DNA of 64,000 bases, from positions 496,001 through 560,000 of the forward strand of contig NZ_JACHGW010000004.1 in the NCBI RefSeq assembly GCF_014202505.1. Direction: 5' to 3'. Each line of letters opens with the position of its first letter. Positions within the stretch are counted from its first letter, which is position 1. The stretch is from Armatimonas rosea. Its GTDB lineage: Bacteria; Armatimonadota; Armatimonadia; Armatimonadales; Armatimonadaceae. Shown here piece by piece: positions 10,571-25,303 of the stretch. Under the pieces are notes generated by a model that saw only the letters and a list, made by a program, of their open reading frames with translations, did no database searches and had not been told where the DNA came from. The position numbers and the translations under genes are program-made.

Positions 10571-10807
10571 TTACGCAGGATGCTCCGTTTTTTCCTTCCC
10601 CTCCTCGGCGGACTCTGGCGCAAAATCGGGGATATCCTCGGGCTCGACCTCGACCACCTTACCGTCGCGCCAGACCACGACCGACTGCTGCCGGCGCTTG
10701 TGGTCCGTCAGCGCGGCCTGGACACCGGCCTGAAAGGCCTTCAGGACAATCGGAAGGTGGCTCAGCTCAAAGGACTTCTTCGGTTGGTTTGACTCGTCGC
10801 TCGACAT
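10571..10807 (-). CDS. Small protein coupled to the zeta-like kinase
   Basis: 78 residues; a helical N-terminal half (SHLPIVLKAFQAGVQAAL), then VVVWRDGKVVEVEPEDIP and an acidic tail. Short proteins with the W-R-D-G-K-V-V element are commonly encoded beside zeta-toxin-like ATPases, which fits here. Its start lies inside the end of the upstream kinase gene (41-bp overlap in another frame), so the two are made together. It could be an antitoxin or partner. The usual zeta antitoxin (epsilon) is a three-helix bundle, and this does not look like one. Confidence 0.7.
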   Translation of the reverse strand: MSSDESNQPKKSFELSHLPIVLKAFQAGVQAALTDHKRRQQSVVVWRDGKVVEVEPEDIPDFAPESAEEGKEKTEHPA

Positions 10808-11348
10808 AGTTTGCTCTCATCTGACGCCAGGCAGCGGGCTGTGGCGTCGTTCCGTAGGCGATCACCCCGGGGTCGTCCAGGGTCGTGTTGTCTACCACCA
10901 GCCACTCATCGGCCAGGGGCTGGTAGAGATCGTAGAAGCAGCGCAGGCCGCTCTCCCAGCGGCGGCGGATGGTCTTCTCGGGGATCGAGTGCCCGCCGGT
11001 TCGCACCCGCTGGCGCACACGAGCCACCGCAAGCTCCGGGCTGGGGAGATAGAGAAAGTAGAGGTGCACCTGGTAGCCTTGCTCCCGCAGCTTCACCACC
11101 CGCACCGCCAGCGCCCGCCCGGAGAGGGTGGTCTCCAGCGCAAAGTCCCGCCCCTCGCCCGCCAGCAGATCGAGCCGCTCTAGGAGCAGCCGCCCCGCCC
11201 GCACCTCGACTCCGTCCGGGTCGGTCAGGCGCAGCTCCTTGGCGATCTCATCGGCGTTGAGGTACGGCATCCCCTCCGGCAAGAAGGTCCGCGCAATCGT
11301 GGACTTCCCCGAACCGTTCGGCCCCGCTAGAATGATCAATCGCGGCAT
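10767..11348 (-). CDS. Zeta-toxin-like P-loop kinase
   Basis: 193 residues starting MPRLIILAGPNGSGKSTIAR: Walker A GPNGSGKST close to the N-terminus, then YLNADEIAKELR (the N-A-D-E substrate motif) and ALETTLSGRAL, followed by a lid helix with RVRQRVRTGGHSIPEKTIRRR. This matches the zeta-toxin/AAA_33 kinase group. True zeta toxins phosphorylate UDP-GlcNAc and block wall synthesis, but many stand-alone relatives have unknown substrates. Upstream ATGs at 11357 and 11420 are in frame, but TACAAT at 11356-11361 lies 7 nt before ATG 11348 and overlaps the 11357 ATG, so 11348 is the best start. The end overlaps the 78-aa gene. Confidence 0.82.
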   Translation of the reverse strand: MPRLIILAGPNGSGKSTIARTFLPEGMPYLNADEIAKELRLTDPDGVEVRAGRLLLERLDLLAGEGRDFALETTLSGRALAVRVVKLREQGYQVHLYFLYLPSPELAVARVRQRVRTGGHSIPEKTIRRRWESGLRCFYDLYQPLADEWLVVDNTTLDDPGVIAYGTTPQPAAWRQMRANYVERRVKPTEEVL

Positions 11349-11505: not shown

Positions 11506-13305
11506 GTGGCATTTGCAAGCTGGCAGAGGACGATAGACTGCGGCGCTTTGCGCGTCGAGCATGTGGGACAAGAAGTGGTAGTCAATGGCTGGGCCAATAG
11601 TGTCCGCGACCACGGTGGGGTTGTCTTCATGGACTTGCGGGACCGCACCGGTCTCGTGCAGATTGTCGCCGATCCGACCCGCAATGTCACCGGCCCCGAG
11701 GCCCACGCCATCGCCGAGAAGGTCAAGAGCGAGTGGTGTATCTCGGTGCGTGGCCGTGTCGCGGCCCGCCCCGATGGCCTGGCCAACCCGAACTTGGAGA
11801 CGGGCAGGGTGGAGATCGAGGCGATTGAGATCACGGTCTTCAACGCCGCACGGACCCTGCCCTTCCAGCTCGACGACAAGAACATCAACGAGGAAGCGCG
11901 CCTCAAGTACCGCTATCTGGACCTGCGCCGCCCTGAGATGTACCGCAAGATGCACCTGCGCCATGAGATTGTCCGCGCGGTCCGTGAGTACTTCTACAAG
12001 AACAACTTCCTCGAGATCGAGACCCCCGTTCTCACAAAATCGTCGCCTGAGGGTGCCCGCGACTACCTGGTTCCCTACCGCCTCCAGGCCGGGAAGTTCT
12101 ACGCCCTGCCCCAAGCCCCGCAGCAGTTCAAGCAGCTCCTGATGGTGGCGGGGATGGAGCGCTACTTCCAGATCGCCAAGTGCTTCCGCGACGAATCACA
12201 AAGGGCAGATAGGCAGCCGGAGTTCACGCAGATCGACCTTGAGATGGCCTTCGCCACGCAAGACGATGTGCTCGGGATGGTCGAGGGCCTGATGATCGAG
12301 GTGGTGGAGAAGTTCACCGAGAAGACGGGCAAGACCATTCTCTCCAAGCCCTTCCCGCGCTTCTCCTACGACGAGGCCATGCGCCGCTTTGGCACCGACA
12401 AGCCCGATATTCGCTTTGGGCTGGAGCTGATCGACTGCGCGCCCTACCTCACGGAGACGCAGTTCGCGGTCTTCCAGCAGACACTCGCCAATGGCGGCCA
12501 GGTCAAGGCCGTGCGCTATCCTGGTGGTGCGAGCATCCCCCGCCGCGAGATGGACGAGCTGGGCAACCTCAGCCGCGACTGGGGCGCCAAGGGCATGGCC
12601 TACTTCCTGGTCGACGACGAAGGCAAGGCCACCAAAGGCCCGGTCGCCAAGTTCCTCTCCGACACCGAGAAAGAAGCCCTCGTCACCGCCGCCGAGGCAC
12701 AACCCGGCGATCTCGTGGGCTTTATCGCCGACCAGCCGGAGACGGTCGCCAAGGTGCTGGACCGCCTGCGCCGCTTTATCGGGGACAAGCTGGGCCTGAT
12801 CGACAAGAACAAGCTCGCCTACTGCTGGATTATCGACTTCCCGGTCTTCGAGAAAGACGAAGAGACCGGCAAGCTCACGTTTGCGCACAACCCCTTCGCC
12901 ATGCCCCAAGCCGACGACCTCGACAAGTTCGAGACCGACCCGCTGGCGATGCGTGCCCAGTGCTACGACATGGTCTGCAACGGCACCGAGTGCGCCTCGG
13001 GCGCAGTCCGTATCCATGTCCCCGAGATTCAGGTGAAGGTCTTTGAGAAGATGGGCCTGACCCCCGAGCAGATCCAGAGCCGCTTCGGGCACATGCTCGA
13101 CGCCTTCGCGCTAGGCGCCCCACCCCACGCCGGGATGGCCCCCGGCCTGGACCGCCTCGTCATGCTCCTCTGCGACGAAGAGAACATCCGCGAGGTGATT
13201 GCCTTCCCCAAGATGGGCGGCGGCTACGACCCGATGATGGATGCCCCGTCGGAAGTGGAGCCCGAGCAGCTCAAGGAGCTAGGGATTTCAGTTTCCGGGG
13301 ATTAG
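11506..13305 (+). CDS. aspS: Aspartate--tRNA ligase
   Basis: 599 residues, the bacterial AspRS length. It has an N-terminal OB-fold anticodon domain (VVVNGWANSVRDHGGVVFMDLRD), motif 2 (MERYFQIAKCFRDE with RQPEFTQIDLEM), the bacterial GAD insertion (~300-420) and motif 3 (GMAPGLDRLVMLL). It charges tRNA-Asp and may be non-discriminating toward tRNA-Asn; that cannot be told here. The frame is open back to 11401, but GTG 11506 has a perfect AAGGAGG 5 nt upstream. The TAG stop sits in the loop of the first hairpin of repeat A3. Confidence 0.97.
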   Translation: MAFASWQRTIDCGALRVEHVGQEVVVNGWANSVRDHGGVVFMDLRDRTGLVQIVADPTRNVTGPEAHAIAEKVKSEWCISVRGRVAARPDGLANPNLETGRVEIEAIEITVFNAARTLPFQLDDKNINEEARLKYRYLDLRRPEMYRKMHLRHEIVRAVREYFYKNNFLEIETPVLTKSSPEGARDYLVPYRLQAGKFYALPQAPQQFKQLLMVAGMERYFQIAKCFRDESQRADRQPEFTQIDLEMAFATQDDVLGMVEGLMIEVVEKFTEKTGKTILSKPFPRFSYDEAMRRFGTDKPDIRFGLELIDCAPYLTETQFAVFQQTLANGGQVKAVRYPGGASIPRREMDELGNLSRDWGAKGMAYFLVDDEGKATKGPVAKFLSDTEKEALVTAAEAQPGDLVGFIADQPETVAKVLDRLRRFIGDKLGLIDKNKLAYCWIIDFPVFEKDEETGKLTFAHNPFAMPQADDLDKFETDPLAMRAQCYDMVCNGTECASGAVRIHVPEIQVKVFEKMGLTPEQIQSRFGHMLDAFALGAPPHAGMAPGLDRLVMLLCDEENIREVIAFPKMGGGYDPMMDAPSEVEPEQLKELGISVSGD

Positions 13306-13413: not shown

Positions 13414-16857
<3,444 letters not shown>

Positions 16858-16861
16858 GTGT

Positions 16862-19800
16862 TCACACTGACAGCCCCTCGACAGTCTCTCCCGCCAGTGC
16901 CCGCTTGGTGAGCTGCACCAGCGCCCACTCCGCATCCCGTGTGCTCCCTGCTCCTCGGGCAAGGGCGAGCAGAGTCGCCACATCGACCTGGCCGTCTGGC
17001 GCCGCACTCTCCTGACGCGCTTTCACCCGCTCCTTCGCCCGCCGCGACTTGTGGCGCGCCCGTAGCACCGTGCGGTCGAAGCTTGGTGCAGAGGCATCCC
17101 CGGCGACCTCCGCGGCAAAGGCCTGCATGTCTGGCTCGTCGTGCTCAAAGAGGGCGAGTGCCAGCCTTTCGCCCGTGAGCGCTTTTGCCGTCGCGAACTG
17201 CCGCCCGTAGGCTCGCACGGAGAACACAGGGCTGTCACAGAGCGCCAGCGCACGGACCTCCAGCTCCTCTGGGCTACTCGCCTCGAACCAGCGCTTGCCC
17301 ACGGCGACACTGCCGGGAATCTCGCACTCCAGCAAGCGCAGAGCAAACGGCAAGCGTATCGTCCGCCGCCCCACCATCTCCAGCGCGGGCGCTCGTACCT
17401 CGGCGAGGGCGTGGGTTGCTGCCGTGAGCAGAAGTCCTTCGTCGCTCTCCAGCTTGGGCCAGTGCCGCACGAGCCAGCGCCCTAGGAGCGGCCCGAGCGC
17501 CGACTCGTGAATCTCGAGCAAGCGTGCAGCCTCCTCACAGGTCAGCAGGCACTCCGTGATAGTCGCGTCGTTGAGGACACGCATCTCGAGGTTTCCCACC
17601 AAGTCGTTTTTCAGCGCCTCGGGCAGGGCACTCCAGAGCTCGGTGATTCCGATGCCCTCGCGCAGGTTTCGCACCCAGCCATCGCGGATTCTGCCCCAGA
17701 CCCCCTCCTCGGCTGCAGCGATCAGGCGAAGGGTCGCGCTCACCGGCAGTGTCTGGGTGAGTGCCGTAAAGGCCTGCGTGTCGAGAATCCCCACCAGGAA
17801 CGGGCGCTCTATCAGTGCCGTGGCCAGCTCCCCCGCCGTGTAGCCCGCCCGCCCGAGAGTCGCCAGAGCGTAGGCCGAGTTCATCGCAGTCTGGAGCGCA
17901 TCGTTTACGGACGAGGCGAGTAAAAGCTCGTCCCAGAGCTCGCGGAGGCTCCCTTCTGGTGTCGCGGAGGCAGCCAGAACGCGCCAGAGACTGCCCCGTA
18001 CGAGGGTGCTCTCGTGCTCCATGAGCTCAAACGGCTCGCCCAGATCCTTCCCCGCCGCTCCCGTTTCCAGCGCGACCAGCAGGGGCTCACGGTCTATCTC
18101 ACGAAGGTGTGGCAGAACCTCCAGCCACTCCTCCAGTGTTCCTTCATCCACCGACATCGCGGCACGAAGCGCCAGCTCCCGTAAGTTCGCCTTACCCGAG
18201 GCCAGCAGGCCTGGCACGAGACGGATCACGGCGGTTCCGCCGACCGCCTCCGGGAAGTGCTGAGCGACAAGTCCGGCAATCGCACCAAAGCGCCTGAGTT
18301 TCGCCGGATCGCTTGCCCGAAGAACACACTCGACGAACGCGGCTTTCCACTTGGCATCGCCCTCGGCTTGGCGCAGGATTGTCGGCAAGAGCGCGGTGCG
18401 CTGGCGGGCAATCGCTCTGGCAAATCCCAGTGCAGCCCTCTCGGGCGTGAGCTCTTTCGCCGCAACAAGCTCCCGCACCCCATAGGCCGTGAGCAACAAC
18501 GAGGGTGTCACGACTCCCGCACCCTTGGCATCCGGCACGGTCGCCTTTGCGGCGCACAGGGCTTTCAAGGCAAGCTCCCGCGCCTGCCAGACCGCCTGCT
18601 CACTCAAGTAGAGCTGCGCCGCCTGCTCCGGGTGGGCATCCCACGCCGACCGGCCACGCTCCTCCCGCCGGCGGATCGAGAGCTGGAGAGGTGCTTTCTC
18701 CACAAGTGCCCCGCGCCCATGGCTCCGCTGCTCAAAGCGCTCCCCTCCGCCAAAGAGCAGGTCCCAGGCGACCCAGTTGCGTGTTGCGTCCAGTGGCTCG
18801 GTAAGGCCCATGAGGGTCTGGAGCGCAAGCTCCACAAAGCGAGTAGGGTCGGTCTGGGCCAGCCCACGAAGGTAGCGCCGCGCCCGTCGCTTCATGTAGC
18901 CCAGGGTCTTGGGCGATGGCGGGGTGCCGTAGGGTGCCGGGCGCTCGGGGTTTGCCATGCTCAGCAGGGACACCCCCTGCCAGGAGTGGGTGTAGAGCCA
19001 GCCCTCCGCAGCCGCGAGGGCGTAGGGATGATCTCGCAGAGGACGGGAAGGCTTGAGGTCGTCACCGCGCGCATCGACCTGGGAGACCATGGCGCTCCCT
19101 CCCACAAAGACCATGCCTTCGCGAGCCAGCAGGGAGACATCTTGGTACGAGTAGCCCAGCGAGACCTGACCTGTCACCCGCGGGGTACGGAGCTCCGTCA
19201 GATCGATCCGGTGCAGCGTGGTATCGTGGCCACTGCGTGACTTGGTGGTCACAAAGAGGGTCCGGTTCTCCAGTGCCATCGTCCGGCTTTGAGGAAGCGC
19301 AAGCTCGCCCATGGGAAGGGGGCGTGCAGGGTCGGTGCTGTCCAAGACCTTGATCCCCGCGGTCATGGGGAGGCGGTTCCAGGCAAACCCCGCGCCCTCA
19401 CCCAAGACCACCAGAAATCCCTCGCCCAGCACGACCTGCCTTGCCCCCCGGTGCTCAATGGCCGTGCCCGCACCGTGGATATCGCGCAGATCCACAACCC
19501 GTAGCTCTTTGTTGGAGAGGACGTAGAGATAGGGAAACTGAGCCGCGACACTGACATTGGGGAGGCTCAGCTGCGCGAGGGGCTTGAGGGTCTCACGCTC
19601 CGGCTCAAAGACCTGGATGGTGCTGGCAGATGCCACGACGATCAAGGGGCCACACCAGAGCACCTGGCTGACCTCCCGAACACCTCCCTCCAGTCGTGCC
19701 ATCCCGATTTTTTTGGGTTGCAGGCGGTTGGCGACATTAAAGTCCAACAACGAGAGATACGGGTTGTTCCAGGAGCGGTTCAGGGCGACCGCGAGGCGAT

Positions 19801-20038
19801 CTCCCTGAGCCGCCATTGCAAAGAGACGCTGAACCCGCCCAATGTTCACCCGCGGCCGCTCGACGGTCTGGCTCAAGGGAGCACTATCGAGCCGCGCGAT
19901 CAGTGCGCCCAGGAGCTCGGGGCTGGCCTGCGGATCGGCTTCAAGTTTTTTATAGAGGGACTTGAGCTCACGCCACGCACCAAAGGTAAGGGGAGACTCT
20001 CGGACAAAACGACGTAGATCGGTATCTGGCTCGGGCAT
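16862..20038 (-). CDS. LVIVD-type beta-propeller plus HEAT/ARM-repeat protein (retron accessory)
   Basis: 1058 residues, cytoplasmic, no signal peptide. Residues ~70-380 form a beta-propeller of LVIVD/WD-like blades (PLIVVASASTIQVFEPE, RTLFVTTKSRSGHDTTLHRI, MVFVGGSAMVSQVDARG). An Arg-rich element YMKRRARRYLRGL follows near 390, then ~600 residues of helical HEAT/ARM repeats to the end. Large ARM-repeat proteins are the other named partner of SWIM proteins in type XIII retrons, as I recall. It is the first gene of the operon and starts 37 nt after the structured RNA. The frame opens at a GTG (20053), with ATGs at 20044 and 20038; only 20038 has a well-spaced CGGAG (6 nt), so I use it. It probably senses phage or acts as a scaffold. 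Confidence 0.85.
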   Translation of the reverse strand: MPEPDTDLRRFVRESPLTFGAWRELKSLYKKLEADPQASPELLGALIARLDSAPLSQTVERPRVNIGRVQRLFAMAAQGDRLAVALNRSWNNPYLSLLDFNVANRLQPKKIGMARLEGGVREVSQVLWCGPLIVVASASTIQVFEPERETLKPLAQLSLPNVSVAAQFPYLYVLSNKELRVVDLRDIHGAGTAIEHRGARQVVLGEGFLVVLGEGAGFAWNRLPMTAGIKVLDSTDPARPLPMGELALPQSRTMALENRTLFVTTKSRSGHDTTLHRIDLTELRTPRVTGQVSLGYSYQDVSLLAREGMVFVGGSAMVSQVDARGDDLKPSRPLRDHPYALAAAEGWLYTHSWQGVSLLSMANPERPAPYGTPPSPKTLGYMKRRARRYLRGLAQTDPTRFVELALQTLMGLTEPLDATRNWVAWDLLFGGGERFEQRSHGRGALVEKAPLQLSIRRREERGRSAWDAHPEQAAQLYLSEQAVWQARELALKALCAAKATVPDAKGAGVVTPSLLLTAYGVRELVAAKELTPERAALGFARAIARQRTALLPTILRQAEGDAKWKAAFVECVLRASDPAKLRRFGAIAGLVAQHFPEAVGGTAVIRLVPGLLASGKANLRELALRAAMSVDEGTLEEWLEVLPHLREIDREPLLVALETGAAGKDLGEPFELMEHESTLVRGSLWRVLAASATPEGSLRELWDELLLASSVNDALQTAMNSAYALATLGRAGYTAGELATALIERPFLVGILDTQAFTALTQTLPVSATLRLIAAAEEGVWGRIRDGWVRNLREGIGITELWSALPEALKNDLVGNLEMRVLNDATITECLLTCEEAARLLEIHESALGPLLGRWLVRHWPKLESDEGLLLTAATHALAEVRAPALEMVGRRTIRLPFALRLLECEIPGSVAVGKRWFEASSPEELEVRALALCDSPVFSVRAYGRQFATAKALTGERLALALFEHDEPDMQAFAAEVAGDASAPSFDRTVLRARHKSRRAKERVKARQESAAPDGQVDVATLLALARGAGSTRDAEWALVQLTKRALAGETVEGLSV

Positions 20039-20074
20039 GGTCATCTCCGACACAAATAGGAAAGCTGTGTCTGG

Positions 20075-20325
20075 GTGGAGGGCGGAATCGCTACTATCCT
20101 GCAGGGACCGGCGACGATCACTGTAGGCGCAGGCCGCACTAGTGGCGGTCTACGGGGCGTGGCCGCAGGCTCCTCAGCGCGAACGGTAGACCGCCACTAG
20201 TGCGGCCTGCGCTGAGTCGCATCGGCGACCGGTGATGTAAAGCGAGCTTTACGGCCACCACGACGAAGCATCGTGGCTCAAACCCGAAGGCTTGAAAGGC
20301 TAACGATTTTAGCTCCGCCCTCCAC
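20075..20325 (-). ncRNA. Candidate retron msr-msd RNA
   Basis: Read on the minus strand (5' at 20325), this 251-nt stretch has every retron RNA element in order. Arm a1 GTGGAGGGCGGA (20325-20314) pairs perfectly with a2 (20086-20075). Right after a1 comes GC, giving the A-G-C context of the branching G (20313). Then follow four short msr-like hairpins: CUAA/UUAG (~20300-20312), UCAAGCC-UUCG-GGUUUGA (20278-20295, C(UUCG)G tetraloop), CCACGA/UCGUGG (20258-20276) and GUAAAG/CUUUAC (20237-20252). Last is a long msd hairpin with a perfect 27-bp stem (20186-20212 with 20127-20153) and a 32-nt loop. It has its own TTGACA promoter and lies directly upstream of the RT operon. No reading frame of note is inside it. 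RNA activity is inferred, not shown. Confidence 0.8.
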
Positions 20326-20341
20326 GCCAAACACTACTCCG

Positions 20342-20371
20342 AGTATGCCCAAGCCGGAAGCGTTCTGTCAA
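20342..20371 (-). promoter_or_regulatory. Promoter of the retron RNA and operon
   Basis: Minus-strand -35 TTGACA (20371-20366, perfect), 18-nt spacer, -10 CATACT (20347-20342, 4/6). The predicted start is about 10-15 nt before arm a1, so one transcript would carry the msr-msd RNA and then the three genes. Confidence 0.65.
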
Positions 20372-20397: not shown

Positions 20398-20886
20398 GTG
20401 ATCTACTTCACCGAGCTTGCGACCACGCTCTGCCCACTCCGGCTGACGTCCCATGGCGAGGCGCTCACGGGCCTCTACCTGCTCCCCGACCACCGACACG
20501 CCCCCAGAGTCACCCCCGACTGGCAAGAAGCGCCAGCACTTCCGGTCTTCCAGCAAGCCGCCGCGCAGCTGACCGAGTACCTGGAGGGCAAGCGCACGGG
20601 CTTTACTCTGCCCCTTGCCCCCGCCGGCACAGCGTTCCAGCGCCAGGTCTGGGCGGAGCTGGAGCAGATTCCCTACGGCCAGACCATCTCCTACGGCGAG
20701 CTGGCACGGCGGATCGGCAACCCCAGCGCCTCACGCGCGGTCGGGCTGGCCAATGGGAAGAACCCGCTCTCGATTATCGTCCCCTGCCACCGCGTGGTCG
20801 GGGCAACAGGGAAGCTCACCGGCTACGGCGGTGGGCTGGAGCGAAAAGCTACGTTGCTCGCTCTGGAAGGGATCACGGCACTCTAG
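20398..20886 (+). CDS. ogt: Methylated-DNA--[protein]-cysteine S-methyltransferase
   Basis: 162 residues. It has the DNA-binding helix-turn-helix with Arg finger (YGELARRIGNPSASRAVG) and the active-site SIIVPCHRVVG, whose Cys takes the alkyl group from O6-alkylguanine in a one-use repair reaction. The N-terminal domain is of the short Ogt type without an Ada domain. It starts at a GTG with a -10 box 7 nt upstream, so it is probably leaderless. It runs divergently from the retron operon. Being next to the retron is probably chance, though both act on DNA. Confidence 0.95.
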   Translation: MIYFTELATTLCPLRLTSHGEALTGLYLLPDHRHAPRVTPDWQEAPALPVFQQAAAQLTEYLEGKRTGFTLPLAPAGTAFQRQVWAELEQIPYGQTISYGELARRIGNPSASRAVGLANGKNPLSIIVPCHRVVGATGKLTGYGGGLERKATLLALEGITAL

Positions 20887-24926: not shown

Positions 24927-25303
24927 CGGAGGCGTGGGGACTCGAACCCCAGTCCAAAGTGGTCAAAGATCAAGCCTCTACGAGCATAGTCCGCAGTTTA
25001 ATTCTCAGACGGCCCCGCCTACGGACGGGCTGGGCTGGGTCCTAGTACGATTTGTTTCCCCCGGCGATGCGCACGTTACGCCGATAGGTAGTGAGGTTCA
25101 TCTTCACCGGGGCACTCACTCCTCACTGGTAAGTGACGCGATGGCTTAAACTAGTTAAGCAAGCGCTAAGGAACGCACAGCGTTCTTAGCAACCGCGAAG
25201 TTGTTCTTCTTGGCGTTTGTTTTTTTTGCGGGTTTTTACGAGGCCTCCCGCGCCTCGGCTCGCCACCTGTCTCATCGGCACCCTGTCTACTCCAATCGCC
25301 CCC
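24927..25303 (-). ncRNA. ssrA: Transfer-messenger RNA (tmRNA)
   Basis: Read on the minus strand, the 5' GGGGGCG pairs with the 3' CGCCTCC, including G3-U70, the alanine identity pair. The T-arm is TGGGG-TTCGAGT-CCCCA. The tag frame runs from GCA at 25229 to TAA at 25155: 24 residues beginning AKKTNAKKNN and ending AVRSLALA, a typical degradation tag end. GC-rich pseudoknot stems follow (CCCCGGTGAAGATG...CATCGCCGGGG). CCA is not encoded. The discriminator base reads as G rather than the usual A. tmRNA with SmpB rescues stalled ribosomes and marks the broken protein for proteolysis. The rest of the 508-bp gap (24873-25380) holds only promoter regions. Confidence 0.95.

Follow-up and report, generated by a model that had tools for sequence, protein, structure and literature searches.

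The element on the minus strand at positions 20075 to 20325 of the 64,000-nucleotide stretch of Armatimonas rosea DNA analyzed here (the window) can almost certainly be identified as a type XIII retron template RNA gene. We give a probability of about 0.92 to the joint reading in which this msr-msd RNA is the first transcribed element of its operon, is primed at G20300, and takes part in restraining the ARM and SWIM proteins encoded downstream. A first-pass annotation had already called an msr-msd RNA here and attached it to this retron. That call is now supported by the fold of the element, its covariation, its homology to RNAs recovered by a covariance model (R1), and its linkage to the retron genes.

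The retron operon and its protein genes

The operon comprises three protein-coding genes, all on the same strand as the element:

16862 to 20053, minus strand: HEAT/ARM-repeat protein of 1063 aa, the first coding gene of the operon (HEAT-ARM_XIII, 1e-18; WGR_XIII, 2e-14)
14766 to 16745, minus strand: SWIM zinc-finger protein of 659 aa with a C-terminal BRCT domain (SWIM_XIII, 1e-158; BRCT, 4e-14)
13414 to 14769, minus strand: retron reverse transcriptase (RT) of 451 aa with NAxxH and YADD motifs (RT_XIII, 6e-132)

The PADLOC profiles HEAT-ARM_XIII, SWIM_XIII and RT_XIII fall on these three genes and therefore identify the system as a type XIII retron, in which the RT_XIII, SWIM_XIII and HEAT-ARM/WGR_XIII families occur together with an RNA homologous to those of other type XIII retrons. 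The general features of a retron are present as well: an RT carrying YADD and NAxxH motifs, both invariant in our RT alignment (A2), and an msr-msd with complementary a1 and a2 arms and a long msd hairpin. Type XIII retrons are presumed to be anti-phage systems.

Because the SWIM gene overlaps the RT gene by 4 nt, an RNA could not be accommodated next to the RT; the a2 arm lies 5.3 kb from the RT start at 14769. Judging from order, strand and spacing, the promoter, RNA, ARM, SWIM and RT genes would form one transcription unit. The BRCT domain of the window SWIM protein resembles that of LigA, and the SWIM profile match ends before the BRCT region in two other genomes of the phylum (G001 and G211), in Methylobacterium and in Myxococcota. 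A search for viral matches to the SWIM protein found none, and viral RT matches, just 28–37% identical, were used only as a tree outgroup. An O6-methylguanine-DNA methyltransferase gene (20398 to 20886, plus strand) is divergent from the retron operon.

Architecture of the msr-msd RNA

The element and its promoter are organized as follows, in the direction of transcription:

20342 to 20371, minus strand: sigma-70-like promoter TTGACA-N18-CATACT (10/12 matches; 0.1 expected in shuffles)
20314 to 20325, minus strand: a1 arm, the 5′ end of the msr, GTGGAGGGCGGA, pairing with a2
20298 to 20304, minus strand: GTTAGCC with the predicted priming guanosine G20300 in TAGC, conserved in most loci
20279 to 20294, minus strand: hairpin with a C(UUCG)G loop, present only in the window locus and in L014
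20258 to 20276, minus strand: P2 hairpin, CCACGATG CTT CGTCGTGG, conserved and covarying
20237 to 20252, minus strand: P3 hairpin, GTAAAG CTCG CTTTAC
20229 to 20233, minus strand: 5′ arm of P4, ACCGG, with its partner CCGGT at 20107 to 20111 (covarying as C-G, G-C, T-A)
20127 to 20212, minus strand: msd hairpin, a perfect 27-bp stem with a 32-nt loop that contains a conserved CGCTGA
20090 to 20126, minus strand: 3′ flank of the msd with CCTACAGTG, CCGGTCC and TAGTAGC; reverse transcription would be expected to begin near its 3′ end
20075 to 20086, minus strand: a2 arm, a perfect complement of a1 over 12 nt

The 3′ end of the promoter is located 16 nt ahead of a1, and a promoter of the same kind precedes a1 in 5 other loci (L014 and L016 to L019). 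Most of the structure described in the first-pass annotation held: the 12-nt arms are perfectly complementary (a1 at 20325–20314 against a2 at 20086–20075), and the 27-bp perfect stem with its 32-nt loop was recovered with arms at 20212–20186 and 20153–20127. Among the four small hairpins it had listed, the C(UUCG)G hairpin (20294–20279) and those at 20276–20258 and 20252–20237 stand; the fourth, GUCGC/GCGAC, folds in the window sequence, but homologues conserve instead the ACCGG/CCGGU pairing of P4, a helix that encloses the msd and changes from C-G to G-C to T-A across phyla.

The element is far more stable than expected for its composition, with a minimum free energy of −146.8 kcal/mol against −96.6 ± 4.7 in shuffled sequences (z = −10.6; 0 of 200 shuffles as stable), and a 12-bp run between 40-nt flanks appeared in 0 of 1000 shuffles. 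Many copies elsewhere in the genome without RT genes, an observation that had been named as one that would speak against the call, did not appear: both model R1 and sequence searches recover the element just once in the 6.3 Mb genome, and no second copy of the msd stem within 3 mismatches was found there. One relative (G009) does carry additional RNA copies without an adjacent RT. An Rfam search matched only the tmRNA gene of the window (24927 to 25303, minus strand; RF00023, E = 1e-50) and nothing at 20075–20325. In most loci the msd loop contains GCTGAG, the complement of the CTCAGC that immediately precedes the stem on its 20212 side, and the two could pair alternatively in the RNA or in its DNA copy.

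Covariation among homologous RNAs

Minimum-free-energy folds alone place the 5′ part differently between loci, and for this reason the helices were chosen by covariation. Covariation among homologues, suggested at the outset as a check on the structure, is present. The a1 and a2 arms pair at 71 of 71 positions over six loci, compared with 49% when arms are exchanged between loci. Across seven ARM- or PARP-linked loci the msd stems pair at 214 of 214 positions, all of them Watson-Crick (49% with swapped arms), a figure that partly reflects how the stems were delimited, as they were found as perfect repeats. In the six-sequence alignment, 88.6% of cells pair against 72.4% after shuffling, and 28 two-sided pair changes are seen against 14.4, with per-pair counts approximate in the msd stem, whose columns are partly out of register. 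When partners are slid by 1–3 columns, pairing drops to 34–49%.

The priming guanosine

The branch guanosine had been placed at G20313, in the AGC that follows a1. This position is less likely than G20300, within the conserved TTAGC, because L014, the closest relative (RT 94% identical), has AGT at the corresponding site, while TTAGC is kept in 5 of the first 7 loci; most copies in G009 and G015 keep it as well. In most loci TTAGC thus supplies, just inside a1, a guanosine in one of the contexts expected of a retron (TAGC, CAGC or GAGC), the first of which is the commonest published priming context (PMC6868368). One locus (L019) has CGGC at this column, so the homologues are not uniform at the branch G.

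Conserved position at the operon head in Armatimonadota

An RT search of 291 genomes of the phylum returned ten loci, 9 of which (the window genome and eight others) encode ARM, SWIM and RT in that order; the tenth (G253) has an RT domain match only, with no SWIM or ARM match. The RNA lies ahead of ARM in G000, G008, G020, G021, G023 and G003. In G001 a WGR-PARP gene (L020:10586-11929, minus strand; PARP 5e-25, WGR 7e-9) is located between the RNA and ARM, and the operon is a PARP-ARM-SWIM-RT retron. G009 and G015, added by the RNA model, have the RNA ahead of an ARM gene truncated by the contig end, and in G017 and G211 contig ends cut the locus, with only part of the RNA kept. Every locus of the phylum with a readable head has the RNA at the operon head, without exception. 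The placement first noted for the window, upstream of ARM at the head of the operon and about 5.3 kb from the RT, is thus both confirmed and shared. A scan of genome contigs gave a sole match, a locus of the same genus.

Two side observations concern these genomes. A 53-bp palindrome at the start of a G017 contig (L015, 1–229) mirrors the 3′ half of the RNA and looks like an assembly artefact at the hairpin. SWIM_XIII-like genes without a type XIII RT nearby occur in G020 (L123, 7207–8595; fragmentary) and in G001 (L122, 8380–9885).

Homologous RNAs beside the RT in other type XIII retrons

R1 was built from six RNAs of the phylum and run on loci outside its training set. It finds an RNA in the gap between SWIM and RT in many loci that we assign to Myxococcota (E values of 1e-10 to 1e-6, weaker in others) and in Methylobacterium bullatum (6e-7), together with a weak match (2e-4) in a locus with Mx162-like features. 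The first-pass annotation had suggested that the window element, if real, would define the RNA of its retron type or subtype; since type XIII retrons elsewhere, among them a Mx162-like one, have a homologous RNA adjoining the RT, the RNA of the wider group is not newly defined by it. No description of an operon-head RNA for type XIII was found in the literature searched, a scope that excluded the main retron classification survey.

In the RT tree, one change of position explains the head-of-operon set. The long outgroup branches of the viral RTs make the root unsure, and the tree therefore accommodates a move of the RNA in either direction. A myxobacterial relative (L178) has three 30-bp hairpins with 27-nt loops (10759–10845, 12626–12712 and 13012–13098 in oriented coordinates); one precedes the RT and two follow it, and they are possibly several msd copies.

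Replacement of the msd stem and orphan RNA copies

Comparison of close relatives reveals that the msd stem is replaced while its surroundings are kept. Between the window and G008 the msd flanks are 98–100% identical and the loop 91%, against 42% for the stem beyond its base; between G020 and G021 the corresponding values are 97%, 89% and 48%. The stems of L014, L016, L017 and the G009 copies L194 to L197 are near-unrelated among close relatives, yet perfectly paired. The total length of the msd hairpin is 85–89 nt in 11 of 11 copies measured, the G001 hairpin being longer with its 44-bp stem, and CGCTGA is kept in the loop of the six aligned RNAs. A phage origin of the stem was considered and set aside: the two stems searched had no exact match in viral contigs.

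G009 carries, in addition to its ARM-linked copy, six further matches on other contigs (L194, L196, L197, L198, L199 and L200), none with ARM, SWIM or RT nearby. Three of these orphans are whole-length, with stems that differ from each other; a fourth, at a contig start, is missing its 5′ end. The remaining two are 3′-truncated, and the same truncated 3′ tail is found in L198 and L200. A promoter of their own is present in several of the copies, with none seen at L197 and L199, and downstream of at least two (L196 and L199) lies a terminator-like GC-rich hairpin that ends in a T-rich tail. No RT was found in the G009 assembly, which is 80% complete with 4% contamination. These orphans suggest one RT acting on several templates. 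A fuller version, in which several msr-msd genes are served in trans by one retron RT in the lineage and the msd stem acts as an interchangeable cassette that is replaced quickly at constant length (85–89 nt hairpin), is a tentative proposal that we consider unlikely as a whole. If true, the cell or its relatives would carry a changing repertoire of msDNA hairpins, which might evade phage counter-defence or vary what is sensed.

Alternative explanations

A strongly structured element between a promoter and the first gene could have nothing to do with the RT and instead regulate ARM expression as a 5′ leader of the attenuator or riboswitch-like kind. We consider this very improbable: the homologous RNAs of Myxococcota and Methylobacterium lie upstream of RT and not of ARM, the G009 orphans have no ARM gene downstream, and the layout of a1/a2 arms, long hairpin and TAGC is a retron hallmark. 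The long perfect palindrome and the dispersed copies in G009 would also be compatible with mobile or repetitive DNA of the MITE or REP kind, upstream of the operon by chance. This explanation deserves even less credence, as the window genome has a single copy, the position is the same in every readable locus of the phylum, the compensatory changes fall at RNA-type pairs, G-U included, and copies vary in the stem with conserved flanks, the opposite of what a transposon would show.

A further alternative accepts the element as an msr-msd but holds it to be vestigial or orphan, with the native operon using a second, RT-adjacent RNA, as the other type XIII retrons examined would lead one to expect. 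The overlap of the SWIM and RT genes leaves no room for such an RNA, R1 finds one copy only in the genome, and perfect pairing is maintained in every locus, all of which make a vestigial element highly implausible. The reading of the element as the working template RNA of the type XIII retron is the one retained here.

Proposed mechanism and significance

By analogy with studies of other retron types, transcription from the sigma-70 promoter would yield the RNA first and then ARM, SWIM and RT on the same strand. The RNA would fold with a1 paired to a2 and be bound by the RT, which would use the 2′-OH of G20300 as its primer; copying of the msd would start at about 20090 and proceed toward about 20230. 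The predicted product is a branched RNA-DNA molecule with about 130–145 nt of DNA that includes the 27-bp hairpin. The ARM/SWIM pair is probably kept in check by the complex of RT and msDNA until that complex is perturbed by an infecting phage; priming, DNA synthesis, control of a toxin and phage defence are all extrapolated here from retron biology.

The usual place to look for a retron RNA is immediately upstream of the RT, and a search limited to that position would miss the RNAs of Armatimonadota. The R1 covariance model offers a concrete template for finding type XIII RNAs at any position. The combination of constant flanks and hairpin length with a stem that is freely replaced yet perfectly paired raises the testable question of whether the sequence of the msDNA stem matters.

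Comparison with known retrons

The type XIII retrons of Myxococcota and Methylobacterium share with the window the protein families RT_XIII, SWIM_XIII and HEAT-ARM/WGR_XIII and a homologous RNA. They differ in that their RNA occupies the gap between SWIM and RT and immediately precedes the RT, a position without an RNA in the window, where it precedes ARM; and in their SWIM proteins the profile match ends at the point corresponding to the start of the window BRCT domain. L173, a locus found widely within a single myxobacterial genus, combines an RT_XIII RT with the CAGC priming context of Mx162; it also has a 24-bp msd stem, gives the weak R1 match (2e-4) mentioned above, and may correspond to Retron-Mxa1 (Mx162). 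Mx162 itself is an experimentally known msDNA with a CAGC context, a 241-nt transcript, a 71-nt msr and a 162-nt msd (PMC6868368). Compared with the window, the Mx162-like locus has its RNA beside the RT, CAGC in place of TAGC, and different hairpins.

Copies of the G009 kind have a precedent in Retron-Nex1 (Ne160), where duplicated msr-msd sequences occur without a nearby RT (PMC6868368). Unlike Nex1, the window genome has one copy, and the G009 copies differ in their stems, several keeping a promoter. An ORF between the msr-msd and the RT is likewise a known variation among retrons (PMC6868368), but in the window the separation amounts to two large genes (5.3 kb), and G001 adds a PARP gene to them. 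Because both the RNA and the proteins are homologous to those of RT-adjacent systems, position is not treated as defining type XIII, and the comparison supports the operon-head RNA as a lineage-specific variant of a known retron type.
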